Origin: Paenibacillus spiritus
GTDB lineage: Bacteria > Bacillota > Bacilli > Paenibacillales > Paenibacillaceae
DNA: 64,000 nt
Assembly: GCF_008710135.1 (NCBI RefSeq)
Contig: NZ_VYKK01000028.1
Coordinates: 62,001-126,000 of the forward strand
Reading direction: 5' to 3'
Position numbers and translations under genes: made by a program. The first letter of the stretch is position 1. Every line of letters begins with the position of its first letter. Under the pieces are notes generated by a model that saw only the letters and a list, made by a program, of their open reading frames with translations, searched no databases and had not been told where the DNA came from. Below are positions 10,998 to 62,971 of the stretch, piece after piece.

Positions 10998-11195
10998 TTA
11001 TAATTTGACTACGTTCGCTGCTTGCGGTCCGCGTGCGCCTTCAACGATGTCAAACTCTACGGATTGACCTTCTTCCAGCGTCTTGAAGCCTTCGGATTGG
11101 ATTGCGGAGAAATGTACGAATACGTCGCCGCCTTCCGCAGTTTCGATGAAGCCATAGCCCTTCTCTGCGTTAAACCATTTTACTTTACCTTCCAT
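10998..11195 (-). CDS. Cold-shock protein, CspA family
   Basis: A 65-residue single-stranded nucleic-acid binding beta-barrel that acts as an RNA chaperone. RNP1 is KGYGFI and RNP2 is VFVHF, both intact, and the length is standard. A consensus promoter and a terminator enclose it as a single-gene unit. It sits between hpf and the glycan operon, where Bacillus has neither gene. I give no csp letter because several paralogues are usual. Confidence 0.93.
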
Positions 11196-11437: not shown

Positions 11438-12160
11438 TTATCCCCCGTAGTCATAATCTTTGATCTTCCCGTCAATATATTCCAAAATTCGCTCATAATC
11501 GTCAAAGTAGTCAATTTCAGACCAAAAGCAGCCTTTTACGTCAATCGTATAAATATTCTGATTATGCGTCATCGTATAAAGAATATCTTCCCACCACTTC
11601 CCATGCTCCTGTGCATGAATCAATTGCTCCATCTGATCACAGAATGTTTCGGTGAAACGTTTCTCTACCTTGGCAATGCCTACATACTCACAGGTCCGGT
11701 CTTCCCGCGGAAGGTCCTTCCCGTATTTCTTGACACATCCATTGACGGTTTGAAAAAAGTAGTCTCCGACTTCAACCCTATCGGTGTCCATAGCCATAAC
11801 TACCTCATGCCGGTCGCTTAGAATTCGCTTGAGAATTTCCGGAGAGAAGAAGACATCCGCATTTAGAATCAGCATATCATCGTTGATCTCCTGCCGGGCA
11901 AACCAAAGGCTGGCAATGCTATTGGTTACATCATAAAAAGGGTTATGGTAGTAAGTCACTTCAAGTCCCTGCAGCGCTTTTTGAATCAGATGATTCTGGT
12001 AGCCAACGCAGACATAAATCTCCATGCCATGCTCAAGCAGCATTGTGACGGTATGCCGGATAAGCGGTACACCATTGATCGGCAGCGTGCTTTTGGGCAC
12101 ATTTTCAATCATACGCGAGATTCGGGTTCCCTTACCCGCTGCTAATAATATCGCCTTCAT
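11438..12160 (-). CDS. Nucleotidyltransferase, LicC-like (CTP:phosphocholine or sugar-phosphate)
   Basis: NTP-transferase of 240 residues with the N-terminal signature LLAAGKGTR (5-13), a PKSTLPINGVPL base and phosphate loop, NPFYDVTNSIASLW, and the metal-binding ADVFF. The NPFYD-N-SL segment and short length recall LicC-type cytidylyltransferases more than the longer glucose-1-phosphate thymidylyltransferases. It would activate phosphocholine or another phospho-alcohol, or a sugar phosphate, for the LicD-type transferases encoded upstream. It is the last gene of the operon, 12 bases after the HAD gene, with GGAGG 8 bases before the ATG. The exact substrate cannot be read from sequence. Confidence 0.8.
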   Translation of the reverse strand: MKAILLAAGKGTRISRMIENVPKSTLPINGVPLIRHTVTMLLEHGMEIYVCVGYQNHLIQKALQGLEVTYYHNPFYDVTNSIASLWFARQEINDDMLILNADVFFSPEILKRILSDRHEVVMAMDTDRVEVGDYFFQTVNGCVKKYGKDLPREDRTCEYVGIAKVEKRFTETFCDQMEQLIHAQEHGKWWEDILYTMTHNQNIYTIDVKGCFWSEIDYFDDYERILEYIDGKIKDYDYGG

Positions 12161-12172
12161 GAGTCGTTCCTC

Positions 12173-14485
12173 CTACTCCCACGTGGGCCAAGGTTCCACC
12201 CATCGGATCGAGTCTTCCGGAAGGCCCCTGTCCGCCAAGTCCCTGCGGATAATTCCTGCCAGACCGCGGTCCTTCACTCCGATTACTATACTATCATACT
12301 TGATTTGCGATATTTCGTCAGGACTCGATACATTCATGCCCATCTGCCGATATTTGAGATAATCCCGATCCGCCCAGAGCACCACTTGGCTTTTACCGAA
12401 CTTCAGAATTTTATCTCTAATCTCCTGTCCCATCTTTCCGGCGCCGTACAAGACAATCCTTTCATCCAACGCTTCTACCGGAAAATAGCTTGCCAAGCGG
12501 TACCGTTTGCCGCTTCGCCAAGTCTTAAGAAAACGGTTCAGACGTCCTAACCATGCCTCGTTTTGGCGGCGATAAAAGGCAATTCGCCTCTTGTCTGCTA
12601 GATTTGCCCGCATAATGGAGTAATCCAGATAGGAGCCCGAATAGTAACGTTCGATCGGCTCGTCAGTTCGGTATAGAAAGAGCTGGCGAAGCTGGCGGCG
12701 AGTTAAAATCGGAGCAAACTCAACCGGCTCCGACTCCCGGCCTGTGACGCCATTTGGCATTTTTCCGAAGAAGTCACGAATATTATTATCTGGCGTATCC
12801 GCAGCATATTTGAGATAAGAAACTGCAATATCCAGCCGGTCCCCGCGGTGTCCAAATTGTTCAATCGTATGCGCTAACCGGGAGGTGAAATTCTCTACTC
12901 CGGTCACGTAGTCCACAAATCCATGCTTCGAAAGTGCATCCACCTCTCCGGCATCATTCAGGACCGGAACGATGCGTTCTCCTTCTTCCCTGTAACCTAT
13001 AGTTTGACCATGCATAGCCCTGCACAGCATTTCTACCAGAAGTCCCGAGGGCCCTAGATAGCTGGGCAAGAAATTGTAATAGATACAGCTACCGCTTGTC
13101 TTCATTCGGTCCATTCGTAGATAGAAAGTACGGATGGTCTCTGGGTAAAAATCCTTCATAATAACGGCTAAGCAGCTTTGTGTAAAACCTCCGCCGGACA
13201 GATCGACAAAGGCAAACTGGTTATTGGTAAGATCCAGTTCTTGCTGCAGGTAACGCGCAACCAGCTCACGCTTCGGACGGTGTTTATTCTGCAGAAACGT
13301 TTTGAAAGTCAGATTGGAGTTCAATCTCTTAGCAATTTCAGCTAAGGCGATCTGCGATAACGGCTTCTTGACCGTTCGTGCTGCAAAAGGGAGGAAGGGC
13401 TCCAATTCATCAAAGGATAGTTGCAATATATCTGCTAAGCCAGCGACACTCTGCAAATTTTGCGAATAAGACCAGCCGATGAACCGGTATAAGTCATCGT
13501 TGCCCGGACCGAAGGAAGCCATCCGCCACGCTTGACGAGATCCATAAAGGTAATGGGTCTTGATATCAAGCTGCCGCTCTCTGATAATCCGGTCTGCGAT
13601 GCCTTTTAGAACGTAACCATCTCTAGCAATAAAGTACAGTCGGCTGATTCCTTTATCGCAGCTCTCCTCAAGAAGCCACCATACATAGGAAAACAGAATA
13701 GGTCCACCCAAGGAAGAACCAATGGCCGCAGCGGTCTTTGCCGTCTCCGCAGTCTGCTCGGATATGCGAACATAGCGGGAAGCCCCTATTGACAATTGTG
13801 TATAGGCATCGTCTTCGCTTCGCTCAAGCGCTGCTTGTTCATAAGTCGTCAATGGACTGAAAGGTAGGTGCTTGGTTCTAATTCCCAGCTCGGCAGCCCT
13901 CTGAATATCCACTTCCAGATTATCGCCGCAATGGGTCCATTCGCTGAACTCTACTCTTTCCAGTTCAGCGACGCGCTTATACAATTTGCCCGTCCATTTG
14001 GCCTGTCCGTAATCCGACGAAATATAGAGCGGTAGATCGGCAAGGATCGGATCCGCCTTGACCAGCATCGCTTGTATAAGCTCGTGGTCGAGGTACATAT
14101 CAGAGATTAGGATAACCCGTTCTCCCTGACGGATAAGCGTCTTCAGCCATTCTATTCGTGATTGGATCGGAAGCGTGTACTCATACTCTATCGCTCGTTC
14201 TAGTTGTTGCAACCGTAGCGCCATTTCTGCTGTTAGGCTTCCGGTCGTCAATAAAGCATCGTAAATCTGGATGAGCGTGATTTCCTCTATCCATTCCGAT
14301 TCCCGAATCGTCCAGACCATTTGCTCTGCATGACTCCGAAGAAGAAAGAAATTACTGCGAACATATTCGGGAATATCCGCAAATTCGCTCTCATACCGGA
14401 GTTTCTCTTGCATCAGAGCGAAGATCCCCTTAGGTGTTGCAGTAGCTCGGGTGATCAGCGTATCAAATACGTCAAAACTGTACAT
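12173..14485 (-). CDS. HAD-superfamily protein with large central region and C-terminal Rossmann module
   Basis: A 770-residue cytoplasmic protein. Residues 1-215 are a HAD domain: motif I DVFDT (5-9), motif II in ILISDMYLD, and motif III GDNLEVDIQRA, so it keeps the aspartates needed for a phosphatase or phosphotransferase. A central region (about 270-640) contains FIARDGYVLKG, YLYGSRQAWR and FVDLSGGGFTQS, resembling the large HAD proteins grouped as COG5610. The last about 97 residues begin ERIVLYGAGKMGQEI, a dinucleotide-binding type fold shared with five other proteins of this operon. It may remove or transfer phosphate on a glycan precursor. The function is inferred only. Confidence 0.7.
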   Translation of the reverse strand: MYSFDVFDTLITRATATPKGIFALMQEKLRYESEFADIPEYVRSNFFLLRSHAEQMVWTIRESEWIEEITLIQIYDALLTTGSLTAEMALRLQQLERAIEYEYTLPIQSRIEWLKTLIRQGERVILISDMYLDHELIQAMLVKADPILADLPLYISSDYGQAKWTGKLYKRVAELERVEFSEWTHCGDNLEVDIQRAAELGIRTKHLPFSPLTTYEQAALERSEDDAYTQLSIGASRYVRISEQTAETAKTAAAIGSSLGGPILFSYVWWLLEESCDKGISRLYFIARDGYVLKGIADRIIRERQLDIKTHYLYGSRQAWRMASFGPGNDDLYRFIGWSYSQNLQSVAGLADILQLSFDELEPFLPFAARTVKKPLSQIALAEIAKRLNSNLTFKTFLQNKHRPKRELVARYLQQELDLTNNQFAFVDLSGGGFTQSCLAVIMKDFYPETIRTFYLRMDRMKTSGSCIYYNFLPSYLGPSGLLVEMLCRAMHGQTIGYREEGERIVPVLNDAGEVDALSKHGFVDYVTGVENFTSRLAHTIEQFGHRGDRLDIAVSYLKYAADTPDNNIRDFFGKMPNGVTGRESEPVEFAPILTRRQLRQLFLYRTDEPIERYYSGSYLDYSIMRANLADKRRIAFYRRQNEAWLGRLNRFLKTWRSGKRYRLASYFPVEALDERIVLYGAGKMGQEIRDKILKFGKSQVVLWADRDYLKYRQMGMNVSSPDEISQIKYDSIVIGVKDRGLAGIIRRDLADRGLPEDSIRWVEPWPTWE

Positions 14486-14496
14486 AAGGGCCTCCG

Positions 14497-14922
14497 CTAA
14501 ATCAGGGATTGGTCAATCAATTTCTTGATCTGAGTGGAACTCGTCCCTTGGGTGTAAGGAAAGAAGATCATATCCGAGCCAACCTCACGTAACTGGGCAT
14601 GCTCCTCTTGCCAATCGTCCTTATGGTCATCGCCTGAAAAGTGACAGTCGTAGCGATACAACTGCCAGGCATCCCACTTTACCGTGTTGTGATAAGATAC
14701 CGCAACCGCCCGATCGACATATTTGATAGACTCGACAATGGCCAGACGTTCCTCGAATGGAATGTATGGTGCTCTTCCTTTAAAATGAAGGACCAATTCA
14801 TCCGTCAGCACACCGGCGATCAAATACTCGCTAAGCTCCTTGCACTGGTGAAGAAGATTTAAATGACCAACATGGAATAAGTCAAATACACCGGGCACAT
14901 ACCCTGTCTTGTACGGTTTCAT
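14497..14922 (-). CDS. Cytidylyltransferase-like protein (TagD/glycerol-3-phosphate type)
   Basis: A 141-residue nucleotidyltransferase of the HxGH class. The HVGH motif is at 17-20 after PGVFDLFHVGH, and the C-terminal TQGTSSTQIKK (124-134) corresponds to the R-x-x-G-x-S-T-T signature. The length suits TagD-like CDP-glycerol or other CDP-alcohol synthesis, although the usual arginine of the last motif is replaced by threonine. The TagF-like protein encoded first in the operon could use its product. AAGGAGG precedes the ATG. Confidence 0.82.
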   Translation of the reverse strand: MKPYKTGYVPGVFDLFHVGHLNLLHQCKELSEYLIAGVLTDELVLHFKGRAPYIPFEERLAIVESIKYVDRAVAVSYHNTVKWDAWQLYRYDCHFSGDDHKDDWQEEHAQLREVGSDMIFFPYTQGTSSTQIKKLIDQSLI

Positions 14923-14937
14923 GGTTGTACCTCCTTG

Positions 14938-16008
14938 TTAGAATACCGGGCAATCCACGCCGGAGATCATCTTGACTCCATTCTCATAAGCATACTCCGA
15001 ATGAAGGATGGTTTTCTTCGTCCGGTTCGTAATCCAATAGTCTGCCTTTCGAAATACCGCCCGTTCCTGCTCTTCCGGGCAGAGGCAGGTTTGCACCGAG
15101 CACGTCGCTTTCTCCATTTGGATTAACTTGTCGATATAAGTCGCCAACAAGGAGAGAATCTGAGGCGATGCAGCTGCGAACTGCTCCTCAACTAGGATAA
15201 TCAGCATCCGTTCTTGATCGGTCCTAAACGTATGAACGAATTCTTTAATGATTCGTTGCCACAGACTAAAGGGTTCTGCAAAATCCCCAAAAAATACGTA
15301 CTTCAGTTCACCTTGCGGAAGGGGGATATCAGGGACATGGCTTTTCTTTTTCAGCCCCTCCTCATAGAAGAGCTCGCAGAAGCGTTCTACGTTCGTATCT
15401 GTAAAAAAAGCGCTGTTCTCTGAAATTTTCCGATCATCCCAATTCCACCACTGAATGGTCTGGAGCTTCTCAATGATGTCTTCGCTAAATCGATACCGGA
15501 TGATCCGGGCAGGGTTGCCACCAACGATAGCATACGGCGGAACGTCATTGACTACATGAGAATTAGCTGCAACGACGGCGCCATTGTGAATCGTTACGCC
15601 AGGCATAACAGTCACATCATGACCAATCCAAACATCATTTTGAATTAGAATTTGCCCCTTGCATCTGCATAGTTCCGAGAAATTCGAGACAGCATCCTGT
15701 CTTCCAAATAAACGGGATACTCCGGTAGATAAATTGGCATAGTTATGCGCCATACCCAACGTAAAGTTGGAACCGTACGCAATAGAGGTGAATTGTCCAA
15801 TTTGCAGATTATGGGCAATCCAACCAGCGGGAATTCTCCACTTGAGACCTGACGAGATCGTTCCAGGCCGGTCTCCATCTCTGCTGATGTAGCTGTATCT
15901 CCCGATGGTTGCAAGCGGAAATCCGGGACCTCCCTCTTCTATATCAATCAAATATTCAGATATACCTTCCGTAATTTCATCAATCGCTACAGACAAGTTA
16001 ACGATCAT
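14938..16008 (-). CDS. Left-handed beta-helix O-acetyltransferase with C-terminal extension
   Basis: A hexapeptide-repeat acyltransferase of the xenobiotic/CatB type in residues 30-200: TIGRYSYISRD, QIGQFTSIAYGSNFTLGMAHN (putative catalytic His in GMAHN), then IQNDVWIGHDVTVMPGVTI and YAIVGGNPARIIRYRF. After that fold come about 150 residues of unrecognised sequence ending in a cysteine-containing tail. It probably O- or N-acetylates a sugar of the operon's glycan using acetyl-CoA. The frame is open to 16131, but the ATG at 16006-16008 with GGTGAG 6 bases upstream avoids overlap with the previous gene. Confidence 0.83.
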   Translation of the reverse strand: MIVNLSVAIDEITEGISEYLIDIEEGGPGFPLATIGRYSYISRDGDRPGTISSGLKWRIPAGWIAHNLQIGQFTSIAYGSNFTLGMAHNYANLSTGVSRLFGRQDAVSNFSELCRCKGQILIQNDVWIGHDVTVMPGVTIHNGAVVAANSHVVNDVPPYAIVGGNPARIIRYRFSEDIIEKLQTIQWWNWDDRKISENSAFFTDTNVERFCELFYEEGLKKKSHVPDIPLPQGELKYVFFGDFAEPFSLWQRIIKEFVHTFRTDQERMLIILVEEQFAAASPQILSLLATYIDKLIQMEKATCSVQTCLCPEEQERAVFRKADYWITNRTKKTILHSEYAYENGVKMISGVDCPVF

Positions 16009-16015
16009 AGCAGAC

Positions 16016-18850
16016 TCACCGACTTTCCCCTTCTTCATCTCTGGTAATCCAATCCACATCCTGGACATAGACCCGATAATCCTGGATTCCCATCTCCTGG
16101 AGCTGCTTCTCGATGGCCCGGTAATGCACACTGCAAATAATCAGATGGAGGTTGTCAGTTGCAATATCAGCAAGCTTCTGCGGAGAGCATACCGGTATTT
16201 CTTGTCGGCAAGTCCCCCACTTGGCCGAATCATTATCTATGAGAAAATCCGGCCGGTGCTTTTCCCCATGTTTGTCCATGTAATGTTCGAACATAAGGCC
16301 CGCGCCAAAAATCACCAGCTGCTTACCATCACTGCCTCCAAACAAATCAAAGAATAACCGATAAAACTCCTGGTAAGGAATTTCAGGATGATAAATTCCC
16401 TTGTGCTTGGGCCTGCGCTGCTCCATCGGAGGGTAGCTCATATAGTCCTTACCCATTGTCATTTCCAGACAACGCTTATAGCCGATTGGCACCGGAATTG
16501 TCTGATCTTCGAATCCCAGCATAACCCTTTCCTCAAAATCGCTTCGATTCAACGGTTGGTAATAGTTATAGTGAGTGAAGATCGCCAGGTAGTCAGAGGT
16601 TGGATCCGGTAATTGCGTTATTGCCCGCTCCAGTCTCTGGACGAGCTGGCGGTGCGAGAACAGACTTGCCACCATACGATAACCTCTCCAGGTCCAGCCC
16701 GTCATGTCCCGAAACTGCCGGAATTCATGGCCGTAGACACGGCTATACAGCAGACGCTGGGCGGTCCGGATGCTTCGCAACTTCTTTTTCAGCTTCTGCG
16801 GATTTCGGGTACAGCTATCCATCGGCAGGATGTCAATCCAGATACCCTGATGACCGCTCCGGCCAAGATCGATCCGGCTAATACCTGTAGTTTTGCTGTC
16901 ACGCAACCGCATGAATCCTCCATAGAAGCTATCTACACTTTCTTCCGGTGTCTGCAAAACATACGAATCGGGAAATTCAGAAGCGGCGATAGCTTTCAGA
17001 CGATCATAATCCGCCCGGGGCATGGCCATATCGATATCGTCATCCCAAGGAATATAGCCCTGATGTCGAACCGCTCCGAGAAGGGTTCCGTAGATGGCAT
17101 ATACCCGCAAATCATGCTTCTCGCAGACTTCCAGAAGGCTGGATAGCAACTTCAGCTGCACACTGCGTACTTTTCTTATCTTATCGGTAACAGGGGCTGG
17201 TTCAATTACCCCCTTCGGTGACCCTATTTCTTCTGTATTGCGCAAGATTCGTTCGTAATCGATCCGGGTCCATCTGTAGAAATGCTCATGCTGATCATGT
17301 CTTCGTACATTAGATAGAAACCGGCCTTCTTCCTCCAGAAAAAAACTCCATGCCTCCTTAAGTCCGTATCGTTCTTTCAGGCCGTTCAATGGAACCGCAT
17401 ATTCAGCATCTGGAGCAAAGGCATACATATAATGAAGCGCCCGAAACAACACATAACGGGCCGGATAATTCTCTTCAACAAATTCCTGATCAAAAAAAAT
17501 AATTCGACCGTTCTCATAAAAGCTGTTCAAAGGAATCAATTCCAAATAAGCCCGGCGCAGCACAGGGCCAAAGTCCACCTGGTCTCCACCCTCCGGTCGG
17601 AATGCGCTTTGTTCCGAGGAGACTTGTTCAGAAGAAATTAAAATCAAACCATAGAGGTGATCGAAGAGCCGAATGAATTCAGCAGAATCTCTAGAGACGA
17701 TCTCTTTCAAGTATTTGGACAGTGTCGGAGCAGACATATAAGGCATGACTAAGGACATGCGCTCCAGACTATGTCGAACAATCTCCAATCCATGACTCCG
17801 GAGGTCGAGCATATTCTTATACAATTGCACCATACTTGGCCTACCTTCGGGATATAACGGTGTCTTCTTCACCTGGTTATTCCGATAAATGGTTGTGGCG
17901 AAGGCACGCCCTCTGTCCCGGTCTCCTGAAATTGCCGAATAGATGACTGGGCTTAAGTTCTTACTCAAAGAAGCCTCCACGAGAAAGGAGTTGGCAAAAA
18001 ACTCGAATACACCATTATCAATCACATCATTGTATAGGTCCAGTTCATACGCTACGAGCGATTCAGCATTAGGATAGTAGGGGATCAGACGTTCCTGGAG
18101 ATTCTTCTCCGGCAAAAAGGATTCGGAATATACCAGTTGCGTCAGCTTGTAATCTGGCAGCGGATAATAAAATTGATGATAGGTTAAGCCCGCAAGCTTC
18201 AAGATTTCTTTCACTTCCTGGCGGCTGAAGGAATACCCCTTCGTTCCCTTCGGATAATGATTCACCCCGTCAAAAGGCCTGCCGGTATGCGGTTCGGGTG
18301 CACCGGCAAAATAACGAAGACCGTAGCGATTCTCTACGGCCAGCAGAATTTTACCCTGAGGCTTGAGTAAGGGCAGAAGTCTGCTCAGATAGTCTATATA
18401 AGGATTCAGGCTCGTGGACCCGCCGCCCACTTGCTCAAGCATTCCCACCAGTACGATATAATCGAAGGATCGATCTAATTCCAGTTCCATCACATGTCCT
18501 GCATAGACATCCAGGTTACTGCGGTTCGCATGACGCTGACAGATCGCTTCCGCCCGGAACAAGGATTCCTCTACAGTTGTTACATGTGCGCATCGTTCAC
18601 AGAGCATACCACTGAGTGCCCCGAACTCGCCGCCAATCTCCAGAACCTCCGCCTCTGCATCAAATTTATACCAATTCAGAATCGATGTTCTCATATCACT
18701 CAGGTGATAAAATACTTCCCATCTGGAATCTTGGCGAAGCACTTCATCAAACCGGCCCGCAGGATACTGTTCCAGATAAGCGCGTATATCGCGATCAGTC
18801 GGGTTTGCAGCAGAAACATCTGCCTTCGTGGTTCTGTGCAGCGTGGCCAT
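16016..18850 (-). CDS. Methyltransferase / LicD phosphotransferase fusion with Rossmann tail
   Basis: A 944-residue multidomain protein. Residues about 60-180 form a class I SAM methyltransferase (motif I VLEIGGEFGALSG, 69-81). Residues 290-560 are unrecognised; the motif IFFDQEF there recalls kinase-like folds, but weakly. Residues about 565-810 are a LicD domain with GTLLGAVRHQGYIPW and DDDIDM (588-608), the signature of phosphocholine and phospho-sugar transferases. Residues 841-944 are the operon's shared GAG-type Rossmann module (QLVIFGAGLMFEHYM). It likely transfers a phospho-group to a sugar and may methylate a nitrogen or oxygen of the product. I know of no characterised protein with this order. 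Confidence 0.78.
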   Translation of the reverse strand: MATLHRTTKADVSAANPTDRDIRAYLEQYPAGRFDEVLRQDSRWEVFYHLSDMRTSILNWYKFDAEAEVLEIGGEFGALSGMLCERCAHVTTVEESLFRAEAICQRHANRSNLDVYAGHVMELELDRSFDYIVLVGMLEQVGGGSTSLNPYIDYLSRLLPLLKPQGKILLAVENRYGLRYFAGAPEPHTGRPFDGVNHYPKGTKGYSFSRQEVKEILKLAGLTYHQFYYPLPDYKLTQLVYSESFLPEKNLQERLIPYYPNAESLVAYELDLYNDVIDNGVFEFFANSFLVEASLSKNLSPVIYSAISGDRDRGRAFATTIYRNNQVKKTPLYPEGRPSMVQLYKNMLDLRSHGLEIVRHSLERMSLVMPYMSAPTLSKYLKEIVSRDSAEFIRLFDHLYGLILISSEQVSSEQSAFRPEGGDQVDFGPVLRRAYLELIPLNSFYENGRIIFFDQEFVEENYPARYVLFRALHYMYAFAPDAEYAVPLNGLKERYGLKEAWSFFLEEEGRFLSNVRRHDQHEHFYRWTRIDYERILRNTEEIGSPKGVIEPAPVTDKIRKVRSVQLKLLSSLLEVCEKHDLRVYAIYGTLLGAVRHQGYIPWDDDIDMAMPRADYDRLKAIAASEFPDSYVLQTPEESVDSFYGGFMRLRDSKTTGISRIDLGRSGHQGIWIDILPMDSCTRNPQKLKKKLRSIRTAQRLLYSRVYGHEFRQFRDMTGWTWRGYRMVASLFSHRQLVQRLERAITQLPDPTSDYLAIFTHYNYYQPLNRSDFEERVMLGFEDQTIPVPIGYKRCLEMTMGKDYMSYPPMEQRRPKHKGIYHPEIPYQEFYRLFFDLFGGSDGKQLVIFGAGLMFEHYMDKHGEKHRPDFLIDNDSAKWGTCRQEIPVCSPQKLADIATDNLHLIICSVHYRAIEKQLQEMGIQDYRVYVQDVDWITRDEEGESR

Positions 18851-18880
18851 ATATCATACGCTCCTGTTCCAAAACGTTAA

Positions 18881-20230: not shown

Positions 20231-20231
20231 C

Positions 20232-21527: not shown

Positions 21528-21549
21528 GTCTTCCTCCGATAATATCGGT

Positions 21550-22803: not shown

Positions 22804-22828
22804 ATTCTCTCTCCAAACTTCAAAATAG

Positions 22829-24148
22829 TTAAACCTGAATTACGCTATTTCGGTCGATTCCAAATAATTGAAACTCTAAGGAATTCAAATATATCTGGTG
22901 CTGGAACCCCAAATACTCTAGATGGAGCTTAATCTCGTTGTGCAGATTGGAAAACGTAGCAATAAGTACTGTAGCCTTTTCTTTCAAATAAAGATAATCT
23001 TCAATTTGTTTAACCGGAATAGTTGTGATATATCGTTTGCCGCTGCCAAGTTTAGTTACTGCTGCACCAATTACTTCAACTTCTGGATACCCTTTAAGGA
23101 ATGCTGCTGCCTTTTCCCCCATAACACCTGCACCGTATATAATGACCGGCTGGTTCTCCCGCAATCGCTTAACCAATTTCTCTTGGATTTCAGGCATCTT
23201 TGCTGCGTATTGTTTGATCTGATGCGGTTTTAATGGATAGCGGTTATAGTAGTCTTGGTTCTCTTCAGTCAGCCAATCGAAATGGATGGACTGATCGATT
23301 TCATTGAGAAGTTCATGAAGCTCATGAGTTTTGGGTAGCTGCTTCTGAATGAACTTATAAAAAGCCCGATACAAGTCGTCATAAAAGATACGGACAGCTA
23401 AATTATATAGGTGGCAAAGTCCTTCCTGTTCAGCCACCCGGATCAAATCCAGGGCACCGCGGGCGCAATCTGTAGTCTTACGCAGGTTTAAAGTGGTATA
23501 TTTATGTCTAACACGATAGCAGTATACGAATTCGGGTATCGCGTAAAATTGTTCAGCGAGGACTAAGGCCTGAGTAGAAAAGGGTAAGTCTTCACATCTC
23601 TCATACAGCGGAAACAATAACCCATTACGTACCAGAAGATCTCTTTTATACATAAATCTTTGAAACCCATAAGGAAATTGGTACTCTGAAAAGGTGATCA
23701 TGCCCTCAAATGGAAAAGTGAGTGCTGAGAAGGGGCCTGAGAAATCGGTAAGTCTGTGATCGTTCACCCAATAGCAGTAAGATCCTGCACAAATCTCCGC
23801 TTTATGCTCTACAGCCTTGTTAAATAAGCGCTCTAACACTTGATTATCGGGATAGTAGTCGTCTGGGTCCATAAAGGCAATATATTCGGCAGTCGATGCC
23901 TCAAGAGCGCGATTTCGTGCTTTAGACACCCCTTGGTTCTTTTGATTAATGATAAAAATGTTTGGATATAGGGTGGCATAGCGTTCCAAAATTATTAAGG
24001 ATCTGTCTGTGGAGCCATCGTTAACCGCAACAATTTGAATGGGCGCCAACGTCTGGTTCACAACACTATCCAAGCACTCCTCCAGATAACTCTCCATATT
24101 ATAAATCGGAATAATAACCGAAACTTTATAGGGGTTAACTACGTCCAT
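22829..24148 (-). CDS. Family 2 glycosyltransferase with Rossmann module (paralogue A2)
   Basis: A 439-residue GT-A enzyme: SVIIPIYNMESYLEECLDS, VNDGSTDRS and FMDPDDYYPDN. It shares YQFPYGF and most of its length with the protein of 20232-21527. The tail PVIIYGAGVMGEKAAAF is the shared Rossmann module. Its ATG overlaps the end of the preceding GT4 gene by 14 bases, with GGAGGA inside that gene, so translation is probably coupled. Confidence 0.85.
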   Translation of the reverse strand: MDVVNPYKVSVIIPIYNMESYLEECLDSVVNQTLAPIQIVAVNDGSTDRSLIILERYATLYPNIFIINQKNQGVSKARNRALEASTAEYIAFMDPDDYYPDNQVLERLFNKAVEHKAEICAGSYCYWVNDHRLTDFSGPFSALTFPFEGMITFSEYQFPYGFQRFMYKRDLLVRNGLLFPLYERCEDLPFSTQALVLAEQFYAIPEFVYCYRVRHKYTTLNLRKTTDCARGALDLIRVAEQEGLCHLYNLAVRIFYDDLYRAFYKFIQKQLPKTHELHELLNEIDQSIHFDWLTEENQDYYNRYPLKPHQIKQYAAKMPEIQEKLVKRLRENQPVIIYGAGVMGEKAAAFLKGYPEVEVIGAAVTKLGSGKRYITTIPVKQIEDYLYLKEKATVLIATFSNLHNEIKLHLEYLGFQHQIYLNSLEFQLFGIDRNSVIQV

Positions 24149-25250
24149 ATCCTTCCTCCAGCCGTTTGATTTCCGATACGATATTATACCCGGCCGCCGT
24201 GATAGGCTCCTCGGTCTGGCCCCTATGGTATTTCTCGGCGTTCTGTCTAACCCAAGCGTACCAAGCCTCCTCTTTTAGAGGCAGAAAATCAAGATTTCCG
24301 GTAATCTTGGCTTCATAGGGAACCTTATCGCTGGCCAAACAATGTAATCCAGCCGCCTGGGCCTCAATCAGCACAATACCCAATCCCTCAAAATGCGAAG
24401 GCAACAAAAAAAGATCCATTGCCTGCATAATTCCATGAACATCTTCTCTTGCGCCAAGAAAGATGACACTTGAGCCCAATCCAAAATCATTGACTTGCTG
24501 TCGAATCTGCTCCTCCATCGGCCCGACACCGGCCAGGACGAGTCTCGCTTGCGGGTATACAGATACCACCCTTCGAAAGACCTCAATTAAAAATTCGTGA
24601 TTTTTGGTGTGAACAAACCTTCCGACATGTCCCAGTACCAAGCAATCGTTGAGTCCCAAACGTTGTCGATAATTTCGGCGAAGCACAAGGTTAAAGGCAA
24701 ACTTTCTAACATCAATTGCATTCCTCATAAGGATAATCCGCTCTCTGGGAATCTGCTCACCAAACAACCAGTCCGCTGCCGCTTCCGAGCAGGCCCAATA
24801 ATCGGTCGCCAGCCCCCTGTGAAATAATTTCTTCTGCTCCTGATGGTGCCTGATGGCTATCAGTCGTTCCTTCTCGTCTGCCTTATCTACCATGGTGCTG
24901 TGCGCATGCACGATGATCCGAGGAACCCGATGGCGGAGGGCAAGTTTCTCTGCCAGAAAGCTTTTCCAATAGGAGGTATGGAGATGTATAACATCGTAGC
25001 CCTCTTCCAAAATGTGATTCATCTCTTCAATGAACCTCTCCTCGTTCTCTTCAGCATAGCAGGACAGATAGTGCACTTTACAGCCTTGGCTTGTCAATGT
25101 CTCTTCAAAGTCGAGCTTCTTCTTGCTGAACGTTGCAAAATCAAAGTGAAACCGATCCCTATCAATATGTCTCCAATTATTCAGTACATAGTTGGTAATA
25201 CCGCCGGAAGTGTTAGCGATGGGGAATTGCAAAATATTAATTTTATCCAT
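24135..25250 (-). CDS. Family 4 glycosyltransferase (GT-B)
   Basis: A retaining GT-B enzyme of 371 residues from the chosen start. The N-terminal half begins MDKINILQFPIANTSGGI with a glycine-rich acceptor loop. The C-terminal half has GHVGRFVHTKNHEFLI, LVLAGVGPMEEQI, LLPSHFEGLGIVLIEAQA and the E-x7-E nucleotide-sugar site. No membrane segment is seen. The ATG at 25250 overlaps the preceding oxidoreductase by 8 bases with GGAAG upstream; an earlier frame start at 25280 overlaps more and lacks a site. It is the only GT-B enzyme of this kind in the operon and lacks the Rossmann tail. Confidence 0.88.
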   Translation of the reverse strand: MDKINILQFPIANTSGGITNYVLNNWRHIDRDRFHFDFATFSKKKLDFEETLTSQGCKVHYLSCYAEENEERFIEEMNHILEEGYDVIHLHTSYWKSFLAEKLALRHRVPRIIVHAHSTMVDKADEKERLIAIRHHQEQKKLFHRGLATDYWACSEAAADWLFGEQIPRERIILMRNAIDVRKFAFNLVLRRNYRQRLGLNDCLVLGHVGRFVHTKNHEFLIEVFRRVVSVYPQARLVLAGVGPMEEQIRQQVNDFGLGSSVIFLGAREDVHGIMQAMDLFLLPSHFEGLGIVLIEAQAAGLHCLASDKVPYEAKITGNLDFLPLKEEAWYAWVRQNAEKYHRGQTEEPITAAGYNIVSEIKRLEEGYGRS

Positions 25251-26250
25251 TAGTTCTTCCAACACCTCTTCTACCACCATTTCTCTCTTTCAAAAATGCG
25301 GCCATAATAGCAGCTATCCCGATGGATACTTTAGATGGCAACAACCGGACAGCCTCCTGACTCCCCTGAATTGCTGCCGCAAACCAGCTCAGTCCATATC
25401 TTAAGCCTTCACCGGCGAACTCCTCTTCAAAGTCATCGCGAGAGGTGGCATCTTCATAATAGAGCGAGAATGCATCGGTCTTCCACCACGGAGCGACTAC
25501 CTTGAGATAGCCCTTGCTTCCGCTGACTACGAGCGTGCCTTCTGACTTGACTCCAAGCCCAACTTTAACGGTAGCCAGACTGTCTGTATAGCGAAAATAC
25601 GCTTTTGTATACAAATCCAGTCCATGTTGGCCGGGGATGTGTTCAAAGCGCAGCGACTCATATTGGTCTCCTAAGATGCTCAGGACGGCCATGAGCGGGT
25701 AACTGCCCAATTCCGTAAAACTTCCGGCCCATGGCGAAGGCGAAAGTTCTCTCCAGTGTTCTCCAGGGGGTGAGAGTTTCGTAAATGTTCCTTCCACATC
25801 TCGGATAAGCCCGATCCTGCCGCTATCCAGCACTTCCAATACCTTAAGAAATCCGGGGCAATATGCAGTCTTGATGGCCTCCATTAATACCAAGCCCTGA
25901 TGCTTGGCGCAAGCAAAGGCTTTCTCCGCCTCCTGTTTATCCAGTACCATTGGCTTCTCGCACCAGACATGCTTGCCTTTGACCAGAGCATTCATAATAT
26001 AGTAAAAATGCGTTTCATGTGGAGAAGCAATATATACGGCATCTACCCCTTTGTAGAGCATCTCTTCACTCTCGGCAGCTATTTCCAAATGATGCCGATC
26101 GGCAAACTCACGGGCAGCCGGGAATCGCGGGTTATAGACACCGACAACCTCAATTCCCTGTACCTGCTGCGCCTCCGAAATAAATCGTTCGGCGATCCGA
26201 CCACTTCCTATAATTCCAATGCGTATAGCACCATCCAGATGGGTTCTCAT
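25243..26250 (-). CDS. Gfo/Idh/MocA-family oxidoreductase
   Basis: A 335-residue NAD(P)-dependent sugar oxidoreductase. The dinucleotide fold opens with RIGIIGSGRIAE (glycines 12, 15, 17) and the family's EKP motif is in WCEKPM (Lys99). Members oxidise or reduce sugars, inositols or nucleotide-sugars, and many make unusual amino- or keto-sugars. In this setting it probably prepares a donor sugar. No aminotransferase accompanies it, so a keto- or uronic product is as likely as an amino sugar. It starts 7 bases after the LicD gene. Confidence 0.88.
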   Translation of the reverse strand: MRTHLDGAIRIGIIGSGRIAERFISEAQQVQGIEVVGVYNPRFPAAREFADRHHLEIAAESEEMLYKGVDAVYIASPHETHFYYIMNALVKGKHVWCEKPMVLDKQEAEKAFACAKHQGLVLMEAIKTAYCPGFLKVLEVLDSGRIGLIRDVEGTFTKLSPPGEHWRELSPSPWAGSFTELGSYPLMAVLSILGDQYESLRFEHIPGQHGLDLYTKAYFRYTDSLATVKVGLGVKSEGTLVVSGSKGYLKVVAPWWKTDAFSLYYEDATSRDDFEEEFAGEGLRYGLSWFAAAIQGSQEAVRLLPSKVSIGIAAIMAAFLKERNGGRRGVGRTNG

Positions 26251-26257
26251 TATTCCT

Positions 26258-27079
26258 CTATTTCTCTCCTTTCGGAACCACTAGCGCCGATACCGGATGT
26301 ACTTTCCGCTTTGACTCCGGCGGCAGTATCATATAATCACCAAACTTAAATGTTAAGTATTCCTCATAGGCTTGAATACCTTGGAACATATGATTTTCAA
26401 ACATAACCGGCGTACTGTTCTCGTACCAACTCCGCTTGTAACCGTAAGTTCGGTTAGGTGTAGGAAACATAAGGATACGGACATGGGTCGTTCGTTTCCG
26501 ATTGCTGCGCACGATCAGCTTCTCGTAGCGGCGGAGTGCCCATTCTTCCGGAATACCAGAGAGAAAGCGGTAGAGCAAGCGCACGAAAAGTTTGGGCTCT
26601 GAGAACCTCCCCACCGCCGACCAAAGAGTCTTCCGTACACAGAAACATTTCAGATTGTGAAGAACACGTACGGGATACATATCCGGCGTCCCGTCAAGCG
26701 GAAAAATATCAATAAAAATCCCTTGTTCATAGGGCATATGCTCCTGATATTCTCGGAGAAACAAACTGTCCTTCCGCCGCAGCTTGCCGTAGCCCCAACG
26801 GTAGCCGGGTGTATTCCGGTGGTCCTGGAAGTAGAAACGGCTCGTGTCCAACTCTGTCAGACAGGCTTTCCGAAACTTCTCGTATTCTGAGCGAAGCAGG
26901 GCTACATCAGCGTCATCATCCCAAGGAATATATCCACCATGACGAATGGCTCCCAGCATGGTGCCTGCAATAATTTGATAGCGGATACCGCAGATGCGGC
27001 AGATCCGGTCAACCTCGATCAGCATCTCGAGCTGGATAAGCTGTATTCGCCTCAAAGCCTCTTTATCAATCTGAATCAC
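26258..27079 (-). CDS. LicD-family phosphotransferase
   Basis: A 273-residue protein that is essentially one LicD domain. The signature GTMLGAIRHGG is at 39-49 and WDDDAD at 53-58, followed by IFIDIFPLDGTPD. LicD proteins transfer phosphocholine or another phospho-group from a CDP-activated donor to a glycan. The start is a GTG at 27077-27079 with AGGAGG 5 bases upstream; a frame extension to 27121 lies inside the phosphoesterase gene. It overlaps that gene by 14 bases. A second LicD domain is encoded in the fusion gene at 16016-18850. Confidence 0.87.
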   Translation of the reverse strand: MIQIDKEALRRIQLIQLEMLIEVDRICRICGIRYQIIAGTMLGAIRHGGYIPWDDDADVALLRSEYEKFRKACLTELDTSRFYFQDHRNTPGYRWGYGKLRRKDSLFLREYQEHMPYEQGIFIDIFPLDGTPDMYPVRVLHNLKCFCVRKTLWSAVGRFSEPKLFVRLLYRFLSGIPEEWALRRYEKLIVRSNRKRTTHVRILMFPTPNRTYGYKRSWYENSTPVMFENHMFQGIQAYEEYLTFKFGDYMILPPESKRKVHPVSALVVPKGEK

Positions 27080-28463
27080 GGGCTCCTCCTGTATTTGGCG
27101 ATGTAGCACGCCACACTCCATTTAAATCGCGATATACTATACGATCCTCTCCCGCTCCGAAACGAATCAGGTCTATTCGCGACTGTGACGGCGTTATTCT
27201 CACTGCATCCCACAGGTCTTGGGACACCGTCCCACGCTGTCTTGGAGGCGTATAAGAACCTTTCGGCTTCTTGTCTGTAAAATACTCCAGTTTGGAGCAG
27301 CCGATGGAAATGATCGGAAAGTCCCGTTCCAGATCTACAGCATCGGCATGATTATGACCGTGAACAAGTCCCAGAATCTCATTGCTGCTCTCTCGCTGAT
27401 AGTCTTCTAGCAGAGAAATCAACGCCTCACCGTTGCGGATTTCATTACTCCAGTAATGCAGATTCGCCAACGGTGGAACATGGCTGAAGAGCAATATGGA
27501 ATAGCCAGTCTCTGTACACTGGAGTGACTGACTGAGCCAATCCAGGGTTTCTTCCGCATACCCGTACCGGACATCCTCCCGGTAATCAAAAGAATGCAAA
27601 ACAAAACAGCGCAATTTCGATTCTGGATAATCAAAATAATAATTTGGAAGTTTGCCTTCCCGAACAGTGTAGCGGTCCGTATAAGACAGATAGATATCGG
27701 CTTGCGCTTTCACTTCAAAGGGCTCAGGATTTCCCATAAAATAATTAGAATCATGATTGCCCGGCACCACATAAAGAGGTACTTGATTGGCTATCAGATC
27801 CTGCATCACCATTTCCGCGTAGTCACGGGTTAGTTCAGCCGGGAGCATTCCATCTGTCAAATCCCCAAGATGAACAATCCCGTGAAAAGCCGCCATGTTA
27901 TGGACCATCGCTATATTGCTGGCGGTATCATCCCATGTTCCGTTCACAGTATAGTGACTGTCCGTTACAACTGCCAGCATCACCGCGTCTGCAGCTGCTT
28001 GCTCCAATAGGGAAGCGGCCGTCTTGCAGGCTTCTTCTCTGAAAAAGGGTTTATCAGAAAAGGAGGCCTCCCCTTGTTCAAAGTCCACAATCATTTCGAA
28101 GCGTCCCTCGTCTTCAGAGGTAAAAGCACCACCGTCCGTTCGCTTAAAGCAAAGACGGAAGTAGCATTCCTGTTCAAACACATAATTCTCCTGCCGGTAG
28201 GTGTTCCCGTTCAAATCTCCATTATACGTCGTCCAACTGCACTCCGGCTCATAATCGTACGTGTATATATATTTCGGATTTACTTCCAAGGAATAAGTAG
28301 CGACATTAAACAAATACCGAACATCTCTTAGTATAATCTGGCTGCCGGGGTACGCTTTATAAAAGTGCAGTGACGACATCCGGTCAGGAACGCCATAGCC
28401 GGCTCTTCCGGTCGAAGCGTAAATCGTTACCCCAGCTTTCCCGCAAAGCTTAACCGGATTCAT
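27066..28463 (-). CDS. Calcineurin-like metallophosphoesterase with N-terminal beta-rich domain
   Basis: A 465-residue protein. Residues 1-150 are beta-rich, with many Tyr and Trp (YSLEVNPKYIYTYDY), and unrecognised. Residues 160-420 form a metallophosphoesterase with all ligands in place: DSH (168-170), GDLTDG (Asp201), GNHDSN (235-240), SHVPP and GHNH. No signal peptide is seen, so it should act in the cytoplasm, perhaps cleaving a phosphodiester on a glycan or nucleotide. The ATG overlaps the preceding stop as ATGA. A phosphodiesterase among phosphotransferase genes suggests editing or turnover of the phospho-substituent. Confidence 0.82.
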   Translation of the reverse strand: MNPVKLCGKAGVTIYASTGRAGYGVPDRMSSLHFYKAYPGSQIILRDVRYLFNVATYSLEVNPKYIYTYDYEPECSWTTYNGDLNGNTYRQENYVFEQECYFRLCFKRTDGGAFTSEDEGRFEMIVDFEQGEASFSDKPFFREEACKTAASLLEQAAADAVMLAVVTDSHYTVNGTWDDTASNIAMVHNMAAFHGIVHLGDLTDGMLPAELTRDYAEMVMQDLIANQVPLYVVPGNHDSNYFMGNPEPFEVKAQADIYLSYTDRYTVREGKLPNYYFDYPESKLRCFVLHSFDYREDVRYGYAEETLDWLSQSLQCTETGYSILLFSHVPPLANLHYWSNEIRNGEALISLLEDYQRESSNEILGLVHGHNHADAVDLERDFPIISIGCSKLEYFTDKKPKGSYTPPRQRGTVSQDLWDAVRITPSQSRIDLIRFGAGEDRIVYRDLNGVWRATSPNTGGARDSD

Positions 28464-30973
28464 TCCTTCCCCACTCGTCTCTTTAAACAAGCTTGATGGA
28501 TGTGGAATCCTGCTGTTCCATCCAGATGGTTCAGAATTCCTTCATATGCCTGCTTCTGCTCAAGCCTGTCGTGCTGTGAAACCGATAAATAATCCAAGAA
28601 GAACTCCATCCGTTTTAGCTTACCATCTTCCGCGCAGCAATAGGGAAGCCCTCCCTCTTCTTTACCAAAAGAGAGCTCAATTGCATGACCAGCAAGTGAA
28701 GAAACATCATTGTTTTCAAACCGGCAGGGGATAACCACAACCTCATCGGTCACGATATCATAGACAACCAGGCTGTTATTATATGCGGATAGCGCCGCTA
28801 TTTTTCGATCACTCACTCTTTTTGCAAAAAAGTAATGATTCGGATAATCATATAAAGCCGATTGACGACTGCCTTCCGTATAAGGCAACTCCCACTCCAC
28901 CTTGCTCATTTGACCGGTAGCAGTATTAATTTTAATGATCATATTTGCAGTTCGCGGAAATGCCAGTAAATAATCGCCGCAGTAGACCAGACCACTAAAG
29001 AGATGGTTATTTCCCTCAAATCCTTCAGGATAGGCGCTATACTCTCGGGTCTCTCCCGTCGCTTCATTCCATTTAATTAAAGACTTACCTTCATATGGAA
29101 TTATCCAGAATGCTTCGCCATCATACTCTATACCAAAGTAGGTATAAGTGTCGGATCCAACGGTATGGATCGTCATATTGAAAGTGCTAAGATTAAAGGC
29201 CAGCACCTGATTGGATGTCATACAAGGAATAAACAAAGTTTCTCCAACAAGACACGTTCCCTTGCCCCATTTCATTTCAGTCTCATCAGACTTATTACAA
29301 GGAATAGGATGCTCGGTGAATAGCCCGTTTGAATTCATAGATAGGATTCCCGGATAAGTAACCGGCTTCAAAAATATCTGATTTCCGTAGGAAATAATCT
29401 CGTCAAAATTATGCCGTTCCCGGGCATTATCCAGTCGATAGTTAGCCCTTGACCGATCTCCCAGATGATACTGAACGATTTGCTTGGCATTAAACGGGCT
29501 GATTATTAATTGATCTCCGGCTTTATATACACTGACAAAGGGATATAGCCCGGCGCCTCTTTCTACCATATGTTCCACTACAGTGATCCTGCCGTCTCTC
29601 AAGTCTATCTGGCACAAAGCTTGATATAATCCGTCTACGAACCATAACTTATCTTCTTCCGCGAAAAAGTCCACGAACTGGGCAGCTCTTTTTTCTTCCT
29701 CTAACAGGAGAGGTACTTCAATGTTGGCATATGTTATAAAGGTGGGTTTACCGGTTATTCCGAACATATGAACAATAGAAGACGAGCCTTCCCCGATATA
29801 CGCATCCGAAATTGCTATCGAAGCCTCCACATTGGGTGTTGTATCCAGAATGCCTAGGTTCTTTTCTAAGAACATAGTTTCAATTTTCGTGTACGTTTCG
29901 GCCAATTCGGGACGCATGCTCTGGAGAGTAGACTTGGATAGGGGATGCGGTCGCCATAAGAGTACAAGATCATCACGGCCAGCGAAACCTTGCATTGTAT
30001 AAAGAATCTTACTCAGCGCCTTCTCTCCAAACTCCAAAAGACTGGATATACTAGTGTTATAGAATACGACTTTTCTTGAGCCGATTCGTTCCTTCCATTC
30101 ATGCGGAATGGGAGGCGGACTAGCCTCGTAACGGAGAATCTGGTCCGCTTTGGGTGAACCTAGGGGCAAAAGCTTGGCACGAATTACCGGGTCCGTAAAA
30201 CTATTCATGGCCTGTTCGGATTGTACAATAATATAATCCACATGCTGATAGGAGGGCAGGTTAAGCTGGGCCTCTGGAAAACTCCCGCCCGTAAAGAAAT
30301 AGGGAATATAAACAAGCAAGTCAGTATACGATTTCAATTCATGCGAATAGTAGGGAGGATAAACAGTTGTGATGAAGTTATGCCCATCATAAGGGTTACT
30401 GATATAGATAATATCAGGACGGTGTTCTGCTAGATTATATTCTAGATAATGGGTAATTGTGACCTCCTCTGGGAATAAATCTCCTTCATAATAGAATTGA
30501 GCCAGGCTTCCGTCCGGATTCCGGTCATAATACGGAATGGGTATAACCCGACAAATACAAGAGGGATCCTTCTCTGCGGCTCTCCAGACACTCTCCATAG
30601 CATCCCACATAGATGCTTTGTACGGAAGGAAAACAATCTCGTAATGCAGAGGTTCTTGCTCAATGTGCTGCTGCAGATTTTGAACCTGCCAAGTTATCTG
30701 CTTCAACAGATCAGGCAGCGCCCTTTCATTGTGCTGCTTCTGTTCCCAGAGCTGGTGGAGACTTTCTTCCATTTGAATCAATATCGGTCTATATGTTTCT
30801 GCCTGTTCTTTAGTTAATTGACTGCTCAAACTATCTCTAACGGCATCGACTACATAAAGACAATCCTCCAGAACAACTCGCGCATTTTGAAGATCAGCCG
30901 CTTTGATATAATCTAGGCCTTCCATGAACGTCACCCATATTTGTATGAGTTGGCTCTTTATACTTTTTCTCAA
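28460..30973 (-). CDS. TagF-like glycerophosphotransferase domain fused to a beta-propeller
   Basis: First gene of the operon, 837 residues from a TTG start with AGGGGA 5 bases upstream. Residues 1-108 are helical. Residues about 110-460 resemble the CDP-glycerol glycerophosphotransferase fold: RPHPLS (341-346) and SDAYIGEGSSSIVH with TGKPTFITY (389-415), the region that binds CDP-glycerol in TagB/TagF. Residues about 460-800 are repeats such as VSVYKAGDQLIISPFN and LVYCGDYLLAFPRTANMIIKIN, reading as a six- or seven-bladed propeller. It lacks the membrane-binding basic tail of teichoic-acid enzymes. I know of no characterised protein with this fusion. Confidence 0.72.
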   Translation of the reverse strand: MRKSIKSQLIQIWVTFMEGLDYIKAADLQNARVVLEDCLYVVDAVRDSLSSQLTKEQAETYRPILIQMEESLHQLWEQKQHNERALPDLLKQITWQVQNLQQHIEQEPLHYEIVFLPYKASMWDAMESVWRAAEKDPSCICRVIPIPYYDRNPDGSLAQFYYEGDLFPEEVTITHYLEYNLAEHRPDIIYISNPYDGHNFITTVYPPYYSHELKSYTDLLVYIPYFFTGGSFPEAQLNLPSYQHVDYIIVQSEQAMNSFTDPVIRAKLLPLGSPKADQILRYEASPPPIPHEWKERIGSRKVVFYNTSISSLLEFGEKALSKILYTMQGFAGRDDLVLLWRPHPLSKSTLQSMRPELAETYTKIETMFLEKNLGILDTTPNVEASIAISDAYIGEGSSSIVHMFGITGKPTFITYANIEVPLLLEEEKRAAQFVDFFAEEDKLWFVDGLYQALCQIDLRDGRITVVEHMVERGAGLYPFVSVYKAGDQLIISPFNAKQIVQYHLGDRSRANYRLDNARERHNFDEIISYGNQIFLKPVTYPGILSMNSNGLFTEHPIPCNKSDETEMKWGKGTCLVGETLFIPCMTSNQVLAFNLSTFNMTIHTVGSDTYTYFGIEYDGEAFWIIPYEGKSLIKWNEATGETREYSAYPEGFEGNNHLFSGLVYCGDYLLAFPRTANMIIKINTATGQMSKVEWELPYTEGSRQSALYDYPNHYFFAKRVSDRKIAALSAYNNSLVVYDIVTDEVVVIPCRFENNDVSSLAGHAIELSFGKEEGGLPYCCAEDGKLKRMEFFLDYLSVSQHDRLEQKQAYEGILNHLDGTAGFHIHQACLKRRVGKE

Positions 30974-31035
30974 AGATATCCCCTACTTAGTGTTAATTTT
31001 AAATTCAGTATATCAGAATAATATAATGCATATAG

Positions 31036-31085
31036 CAAAAAAGAAACCTGACGTCTAAGGGCTCACGAAGCCTTTATCCGTCAGG
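31036..31085 (-). terminator. Intrinsic terminator of the fliD-fliS-fliT operon
   Basis: Outer arms CCTGACG (31079-31085) and CGTCAGG (31047-31053) enclose a second AAAGGCT/AGCCCTT stem, then TTTCTTTTTT. It isolates the flagellar operon from the glycan operon that starts at 30973. Confidence 0.85.
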
Positions 31086-31098
31086 TAGATACCCGCCT

Positions 31099-36812: not shown

Positions 36813-36819
36813 TTTATAT

Positions 36820-36856
36820 TTCCTCCCTGAGATCGTTAAGTTCCACATCCATGTGG
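36820..36856 (-). promoter_or_regulatory. CsrA-binding sites in the hag leader
   Basis: The minus strand has CCACATGGATGTGG (36843-36856), a small hairpin exposing GGA within ACA-N-GGATGT, which is close to the CsrA consensus. The second GGA-containing site overlaps the hag ribosome site (36820-36829). Two such sites are how CsrA represses hag in B. subtilis, and csrA and fliW lie directly upstream here. Confidence 0.72.
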
Positions 36857-36908
36857 TAAGCACCCTGCCGGTAAAGTCGGCCGCCCCCCTGCCGGGTGCC
36901 TAATACAT

Positions 36909-62093: not shown

Positions 62094-62190
62094 TGGTTCA
62101 GTCGACCCCCATTTCTCTACCGCAATGAATTATACGCCGTTGTTTTGTCAAATCCAATAGCCCAAATCGGCGGTTTTTTGTTTATTTTCA

Positions 62191-62964: not shown

Positions 62965-62971
62965 TTTGGTA

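Follow-up and report, generated by a model that had tools for sequence, protein, structure and literature searches.

The DNA analysed here, hereafter the window, is a 64,000-nucleotide stretch of the Paenibacillus spiritus genome (contig NZ_VYKK01000028.1, positions 62,001 to 126,000; G000:C21:62001-126000 of a 4.3 Mb assembly). It carries an operon of 14 open reading frames (ORFs), all on the minus strand and read from 30973 to 11438, referred to below as g1 to g14 following the direction of transcription. Target and chemistry taken jointly, the operon likely encodes the decoration of flagellin with a phosphodiester-bearing glycan. Its Pfam content comprised Metallophos, two LicD domains, GFO/IDH/MocA, GT4, four GT2 domains, a methyltransferase-LicD fusion, hexapeptide transferase, CTP_transf_like and NTP_transf_3, distributed as follows.

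28460..30973, minus strand: g1, TagF-like (GT-B) domain into which a beta-propeller is inserted; likely a cytidine diphosphate (CDP)-alcohol:glycan phosphotransferase
27066..28463, minus strand: g2, calcineurin-like metallophosphoesterase (PF00149, 50.7 bits)
26258..27079, minus strand: g3, LicD phosphotransferase (PF04991, 116 bits)
25243..26250, minus strand: g4, GFO/IDH/MocA oxidoreductase (PF01408, 92.8 bits)
24135..25250, minus strand: g5, GT4 glycosyltransferase (PF00534)
22829..24148, minus strand: g6, GT2 glycosyltransferase (PF00535) with a shared Rossmann-like tail
21550..22803, minus strand: g7, GT2 glycosyltransferase with the shared tail
20232..21527, minus strand: g8, GT2 glycosyltransferase with the shared tail
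18881..20230, minus strand: g9, GT2 glycosyltransferase with the shared tail
16016..18850, minus strand: g10, methyltransferase (PF13489), middle domain, LicD (PF04991) and shared tail
14938..16008, minus strand: g11, hexapeptide-repeat acetyltransferase (PF00132; best NCBIfam matches all under cut-off)
14497..14922, minus strand: g12, cytidylyltransferase (PF01467)
12173..14485, minus strand: g13, HAD-like protein of 770 amino acids with a middle region and the shared tail (TIGR01549, 21.9 bits against a cut-off of 23.3)
11438..12160, minus strand: g14, LicC/PntC-like nucleotidyltransferase (PF12804)

With their likely starts, neighbouring genes overlapped by at most 14 bases or lay 1–30 bases apart; the ORF of g3 opens at 27121, and the ribosome-binding site belongs to the GTG at 27079. 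The G+C content of the operon genes was 0.39–0.50 (0.35–0.56 at third codon positions, GC3), compared with 0.45–0.56 (GC3 0.54–0.71) for eight flanking genes. No membrane span was predicted in any of the 14 proteins (19-residue Kyte-Doolittle mean of at least 1.7), and the operon contained no flippase, polymerase or exporter. The same prediction returned 11 segments for a TagO-like protein encoded at 60966-62093 of the window. The ORF map, base composition and span prediction therefore bear out the initial annotation, which had described 14 co-directional, tightly packed, A/T-richer genes lacking membrane spans. It had also placed them between fliT and hpf, where fliT presumably lies directly before hpf in Bacillus subtilis. 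The position stands, but the gap also holds a csp-like gene that had gone unlisted.

10998-11195, minus strand: cold-shock-protein-like ORF of 65 amino acids, between g14 and hpf

The domain list of the initial annotation was recovered, with weaker backing for two of its entries, g1 as TagF-like and g13 as HAD. g1 itself had no Pfam match to TagF (PF04464) at E 0.01, and TagF was not among its listed structural neighbours, where propellers and epimerases crowd the lists. The assignment instead holds through homologues above the PF04464 cut-off of 22.1 (26.1 bits for a protein of genome G009, 35.8 bits for a fusion protein of genome G014) and through a structure model that is GT-B-like at modest confidence. 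For g13, below the family cut-off as listed, 598 homologues were found, many with a precomputed PF22674 assignment; among the 120 homologues listed, one was named 'HAD family hydrolase' and a few others carried similar names (RefSeq/UniRef style).

The two LicD domains are not background, since the operon holds the only two LicD matches in its own genome and LicD occurs in just 13 of 100 genomes of the genus. The nearest solved structure to g12 was an ethanolamine-phosphate cytidylyltransferase (3elb, 1.9e-24, versus 5e-16 for TagD, 1coz), and NCBIfam ranked glycerol-3-phosphate cytidylyltransferase first, below cut-off. g14 matched the structures of LicC (1jyk, 2.1e-11) and a PntC-type enzyme (6pd1, 2.8e-11), with sugar nucleotidyltransferases ranked first in NCBIfam, again below cut-off. 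A phosphonate route, to which the PntC resemblance of g14 might point, is unlikely: no phosphoenolpyruvate mutase over cut-off was present in the genome, the one partial match scoring 21.1 against 31.5 bits.

Six of the proteins (g6, g7, g8, g9, g10 and g13) have a Rossmann-like C-terminal domain in common, starting [VI][IVL][YF]GAG, on otherwise unrelated catalytic domains. Leave-one-out profiles recovered this tail at E values of 7e-16 to 0.0024 (5000-sequence scale); the nine other proteins, FliT and eight from the operon, gave no reported match. Because one domain sits on unrelated catalytic units, the tail may hold the enzymes together or bind a common ligand. In g10, the methyltransferase domain scored 31.2 bits for PF13489 (cut-off 27), with methyltransferases among the structural neighbours of the model, and relatives of the protein occur as split and fused variants. 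Its middle domain (residues ~225-560, window 17171-18178) is conserved, with invariant Lys, Met-Pro, Asn and Asp-Gln-Glu in a kinase-like order. A profile search of PDB gave two weak unrelated rows only and Pfam gave nothing for the window member, while profile comparison with 12 APH-family sequences gave a probability of 0.16%, no better than controls. The fold lists for the whole g10 model were filled by methyltransferase matches.

The flagellar genes upstream of the operon include the proposed acceptor and a further glycosyltransferase, which is likely to be the initiating enzyme for flagellin.

35913..36863, minus strand: hag, flagellin (PF00669, PF00700), proposed acceptor
33851..35734, minus strand: GT2-TPR glycosyltransferase, between hag and flaG

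The g1 family was found in 9 of the 100 genus genomes, and in seven of these it lies in the flagellar filament locus: six in the slot between fliS and hpf and one beside flagellin, with two elsewhere. The slots of two of these genomes, G047 and G029, share most of the set, including g1 (34% identity), GFO (50-52%), LicD (52-54%), a g10-type protein and the phosphoesterase g2 (41%). The genome with g1 beside flagellin, G014, has the order hag, a protein of 1049 amino acids, aminotransferase, g14-like (57%), LicD, methyltransferase, GNAT, flaG, fliD, fliS, fliT. The 1049-residue protein (L142:5789-8938), right after hag, is a natural fusion of GT2-TPR and a g1-like domain; its N-terminal GT2-TPR part is 42% identical over 623 residues and its g1-like part, which passes PF04464, 37% over 343 residues. 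Similar associations were seen in Paenibacillus agaridevorans (flgK, flgL, fliW, hag, flaG, fliD, fliS, fliT, GT2-TPR, g1, g13, g10) and in Paraclostridium benzoelyticum (flgL, fliW, fliS, fliD, hag, GT2-TPR, g13, g1).

A genome scan with six g1 queries gave 575 relatives, and the loci of the best 80 were compared, many of them ending at contig ends. In 63 of the 80 loci g1 has a g4-like gene as its neighbour, and 67 of 70 g4-like ORFs carry a CTP-transferase domain in the same ORF, a fusion found in Clostridia. The shared tail was present in 57 of the 80 loci, LicD or g10 matches in 51, and flagellar genes or GT2-TPR in 14.

Flagellin was found in all 50 genomes tested from those behind these loci. 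To set a base rate, 100 genomes were sampled from the family of G116, the genome behind locus L088, an uncultured Lachnospiraceae metagenome-assembled genome used as bait. Of the 53 genomes in this one-family sample that have flagellin, 19 also have g1, and of the 47 that lack flagellin none does (Fisher p 9.5e-7); with the bait removed, the counts were 18 of 52 and 0 of 47 (p 1.9e-6). Distances were taken to the flagellins listed, so the proximity counts are lower bounds: in at least 7 of the 19 family genomes g1 and a listed flagellin were no more than 10 kb apart, and in at least 12 no more than 60 kb. Among the 50 genomes the corresponding counts were at least 8 and at least 26, with the listed flagellin on a different contig in 21.

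The region occupied by the operon was compared across the genus using the fliS-hpf distance. hpf and FliS were found in all 100 genomes, on one contig in 98. The distance ranged from 0.9 to 32 kb and was bimodal, with 52 of the 98 below 3 kb, 6 at 3 to 5 kb and 40 at 5 kb or more. Contents were compared in 48 slots, namely 47 fetched (39 large, 8 short) plus that of P. spiritus, giving 40 large slots of at least 5 kb. Slot labels can overlap, and the GT2TPR label also catches other GT2 proteins; the tally of 197 ORFs in the analysis of the shared tail, over slots numbering 48 with our own included, counts the six window proteins twice. Homologues of Maf and NeuB occupied 12 of the 40 large slots, and g1 with LicD occupied six, our own included. 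Maf is described as a flagellin glycosyltransferase family in the sections of PMC5109656 drawn on here. It was found in 20 of the 100 genus genomes (19 over cut-off), in the slot in 12, within 15 kb of fliS in 6 and elsewhere in 2, and in no genus genome did Maf and LicD occur together. Longer slots went with FliS more divergent from our own (rho -0.61, n=97), with no such relation for hpf identity (rho -0.07, p 0.52, n=97); the partial value was -0.61, which is not a full phylogenetic correction. The defining trait of a flagellin glycosylation island, a variable glycosyltransferase slot in the filament locus with contents differing among relatives, is thus seen here, and the comparison supports a slot that repeatedly hosts islands of predicted flagellin-glycan type.

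Other contents of the slot were also recurrent. A protein joining TagF (PF04464) to TPR was found in 7 of the 40 large slots (G001, G013, G015, G016, G040, G064 and G065); where inspected, it stood alongside a small cytidylyltransferase and was transcribed against the other genes, and these slots perhaps represent another phospho-flagellin type. Thirteen of the 40 large slots contain a match to a long VWA/TIG-repeat protein of G024 (e.g. L021:5610-9560, minus strand), which lay directly after fliT where inspected. In 23 of the 48 slots (e.g. L045:1167-2744) the gene before hpf encodes an SLH-domain protein; in our own it does not.

Transcription signals around the operon were as follows.

31046..31086, minus strand: terminator-like hairpin and the T-rich run after it, in the fliT-g1 interval
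31007..31015, minus strand: possible extended -10 (TGATATACT), upstream of g1, read by eye and unlisted by the scanner
35796-35771, minus strand: sigma-D-like site, one mismatch, shortly before GT2-TPR

The hairpin has a predicted energy of -23 kcal/mol (z -5.1), and none of 200 shuffles was equally stable; the pattern scanner, with a loop limit of 8, did not list it. Because a strong hairpin with a run of T's separates fliT from g1 and a possible extended -10 follows, the operon is probably transcribed as a unit of its own, and co-transcription with fliT appears less likely. Control of the operon by sigma-D was considered and rejected, as the only candidate site upstream of g1 has two mismatches and a spacer of 14. 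At this spacer, sites with up to two mismatches showed no excess in the window (21 against 16.0 expected); at spacer 15 there were 36 against 16.4 expected, a number reached by no shuffle. The one exact site (spacers 13-16) precedes flgK. The hairpin, the GT2-TPR gene and the C-terminal domain shared by six enzymes had all been overlooked in the initial annotation. Elsewhere in the window, G+C rose to 76% at 44001-45000, within a ComFA/helicase-like gene and far above the remainder.

Phosphodiester-decorated flagellin has been characterised in Clostridioides difficile type A and Pseudomonas aeruginosa b-type strains (PMC10714395; PMC11833859). As described there, both pathways combine a glycosyltransferase, a LicC-like protein, a HAD-like protein and a methyltransferase, with a TagF-like protein in addition in C. 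difficile (PMC10714395; PMC11833859). The C. difficile type A genes (CD0240-CD0244) encode LicC-like, methyltransferase, HAD-like and TagF-like proteins proposed, in the sections consulted, to attach a phospho-amino acid to flagellin N-acetylglucosamine (PMC10714395; PMC4441256). Likened by gene descriptions, the present system would share the glycosyltransferase adjoining flagellin, which adds the core sugar in those systems (here GT2-TPR, between hag and flaG), the LicC-like nucleotidyltransferase (g14) and the methyltransferase (g10); the TagF-like CD0244 finds its counterpart here via g1 homologues only, and for the phosphoserine-phosphatase-like HAD protein the possible candidate would be g13, with its match below cut-off. 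In contrast to the five genes and single sugar of type A, there are 14 genes here, with five extra glycosyltransferases, two LicD domains, a second cytidylyltransferase, an oxidoreductase, an acetyltransferase and a phosphoesterase. The P. aeruginosa PAO1 b-type genes (PA1088-PA1091) place a phosphodiester-linked methylated threonine on a flagellin deoxyhexose; the modification has one sugar, and LicD is not mentioned in the abstract (PMC11833859), whereas a longer chain is predicted here. In the BLASTP search of the 2014 study, PAO1 alone was reported to have the orthologues in a cluster (PMC4441256).

Flagellin glycosylation islands in Geobacillus, as covered in sections of PMC5109656, are variable, G+C-poor and located in the flagellar filament locus, in 18 of 36 strains. 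The operon likewise forms a variable, G+C-poor block in this locus and, broadly defined, counts as a flagellin glycosylation island. It differs in lying between fliT and hpf rather than flaA2 and flaG, and LicD or phospho-decoration was absent from those sections of the Geobacillus report. Unlike some, though not all, such islands, it has no Maf partner, with no match to PF01973 in the genome. The operon shares LicD and LicC-like domains with LicABCD phosphocholine decoration; that system acts on teichoic acid or lipooligosaccharide, whereas the operon, with no predicted spans, has no LicB-like transporter; with regard to the choline kinase LicA, the g10 middle domain shows a kinase-like motif order, with the APH probability given above. 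It also differs from Wzx/Wzy or ABC-exported polysaccharide clusters in the absence of flippase, polymerase and exporter. No description of LicD or the g1 family in a flagellin island was found in the literature searched, a weak negative with most subscription journals outside its coverage.

By analogy, the best explanation is that the pathway works like those of C. difficile type A and P. aeruginosa b-type, enlarged by chain-building glycosyltransferases and LicD. We consider flagellin highly probable as the target, and a phosphodiester decoration as highly probable in its own right. The initial annotation had proposed a phospho-substituted glycan built in the cytoplasm, most likely on flagellin, and it gains support from the Maf and NeuB slots, the position of g1, the G014 fusion and the co-occurrence with flagellin. 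Comparison supports the operon itself, the solubility of its products, the variable flagellar slot, the flagellin co-occurrence and the fusion of g1 with GT2-TPR, and the proposed flagellar link is well supported in this way. We infer the acceptor, the order of steps and the chemistry as follows. The operon would account for the outer portion of an O-linked glycan that is put together on flagellin while the protein is still inside the cell, ahead of export. GT2-TPR, beside hag, would put the first sugar on flagellin, and g5-g9 would lengthen the chain. g4 and g11 may provide a sugar or polyol or acetylate it. CDP-activated alcohols or amino alcohols may come from g12 and g14, and the g10 methyltransferase may N-methylate one of these precursors. 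Transfer of the phospho-groups to the sugars would then fall to both LicD enzymes and to g1, the TagF-like protein, with g2 and g13 trimming or recycling phosphates.

Several observations weigh against this assignment. Flagellar genes lie within the fetched flank in only 10 of the 80 g1 loci, and in 7 of the 19 g1-bearing genomes of the sampled family the listed flagellins are all on other contigs than g1. g1 lies away from the flagellar locus in 2 of 9 genus genomes (G063 and G077), and LicD does so in 6 of 13. Our own FliS is closest to those of short-slot genomes (72% to G063, G077 and G059), contrary to the correlation with slot length. The terminator-like hairpin and the lack of a close sigma-D site before g1 make co-transcription with flagellar genes not obvious, and the substrates of g12 and g14 are weakly assigned, the libraries disagreeing. 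Finally, a polytopic polysaccharide-type protein (at least five spans) occurs in 2 of the 40 large slots, G014 and G033. Neither of these slots contains g1, which in G014 stands next to flagellin instead. Among the 80 g1 loci, ORFs with at least five predicted spans were found in 12 and Wzx/Wzy-sized ones in 3; these figures do not refute the reading by the condition set in the initial annotation, an intact operon next to transport and polymer genes in relatives.

The alternative that survives best, although we regard it as unlikely, is that the molecule decorated is a lipid-linked polymer, cell-wall or secondary, whose TagO-like priming and export are encoded elsewhere. Pneumococcal LicD enzymes act on a lipid-linked wall polymer, and TagO-like, TagA-like and CsaB-like ORFs, so named by resemblance, lie 30 kb from the operon (60966-63994, minus strand). 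The LicD genes outside the flagellar locus, the two slots with polytopic genes and the operon's own transcription signal would also fit. Against this stand the restriction of g1 to flagellin-bearing genomes in the one-family sample, the g1-like domain fused to GT2-TPR beside hag, the lack of a polytopic protein in the operon and a slot shared with Maf islands. It is less probable still that the operon makes a flagellin glycan free of phosphate, its LicD, TagF-like and cytidylyltransferase domains having been recruited to other chemistry. In its favour, the curated NCBIfam matches of g3, g10, g12 and g14 all fall below cut-off, but four domain families of CDP-alcohol chemistry stand in one operon and relatives have CTP domains joined to neighbouring proteins. 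The operon might instead make a soluble phospho-oligosaccharide or a nucleotide-linked small molecule with no tie to flagella; this is compatible with the solubility of all operon proteins and the promoter-like signal, but very improbable given the co-occurrence with flagellin and the position of the operon.

For the flagellin glycan as a class, it is conceivable, if somewhat doubtful, that the g1 family marks a widespread and hitherto undescribed type in Gram-positive bacteria. These would be oligosaccharides bearing more than one kind of phosphodiester group, with LicD and the TagF-like enzyme each contributing one, and made directly on flagellin by soluble enzymes tied together via their Rossmann-like tail. 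If so, the class would span Paenibacillus, Paraclostridium, Selenomonas and about one-third of the flagellated genomes of the Lachnospiraceae family sampled. Flagellins of gut Lachnospiraceae are major immune antigens, and g1 would be a marker gene flagging similar chemistry across many flagellated Firmicutes, these gut lineages included. The enzyme types singled out by this reading are TagF-like with propeller, the CTP-GFO fusion and methyltransferase-LicD, and specific glycan structures would then become predictable from genomes.

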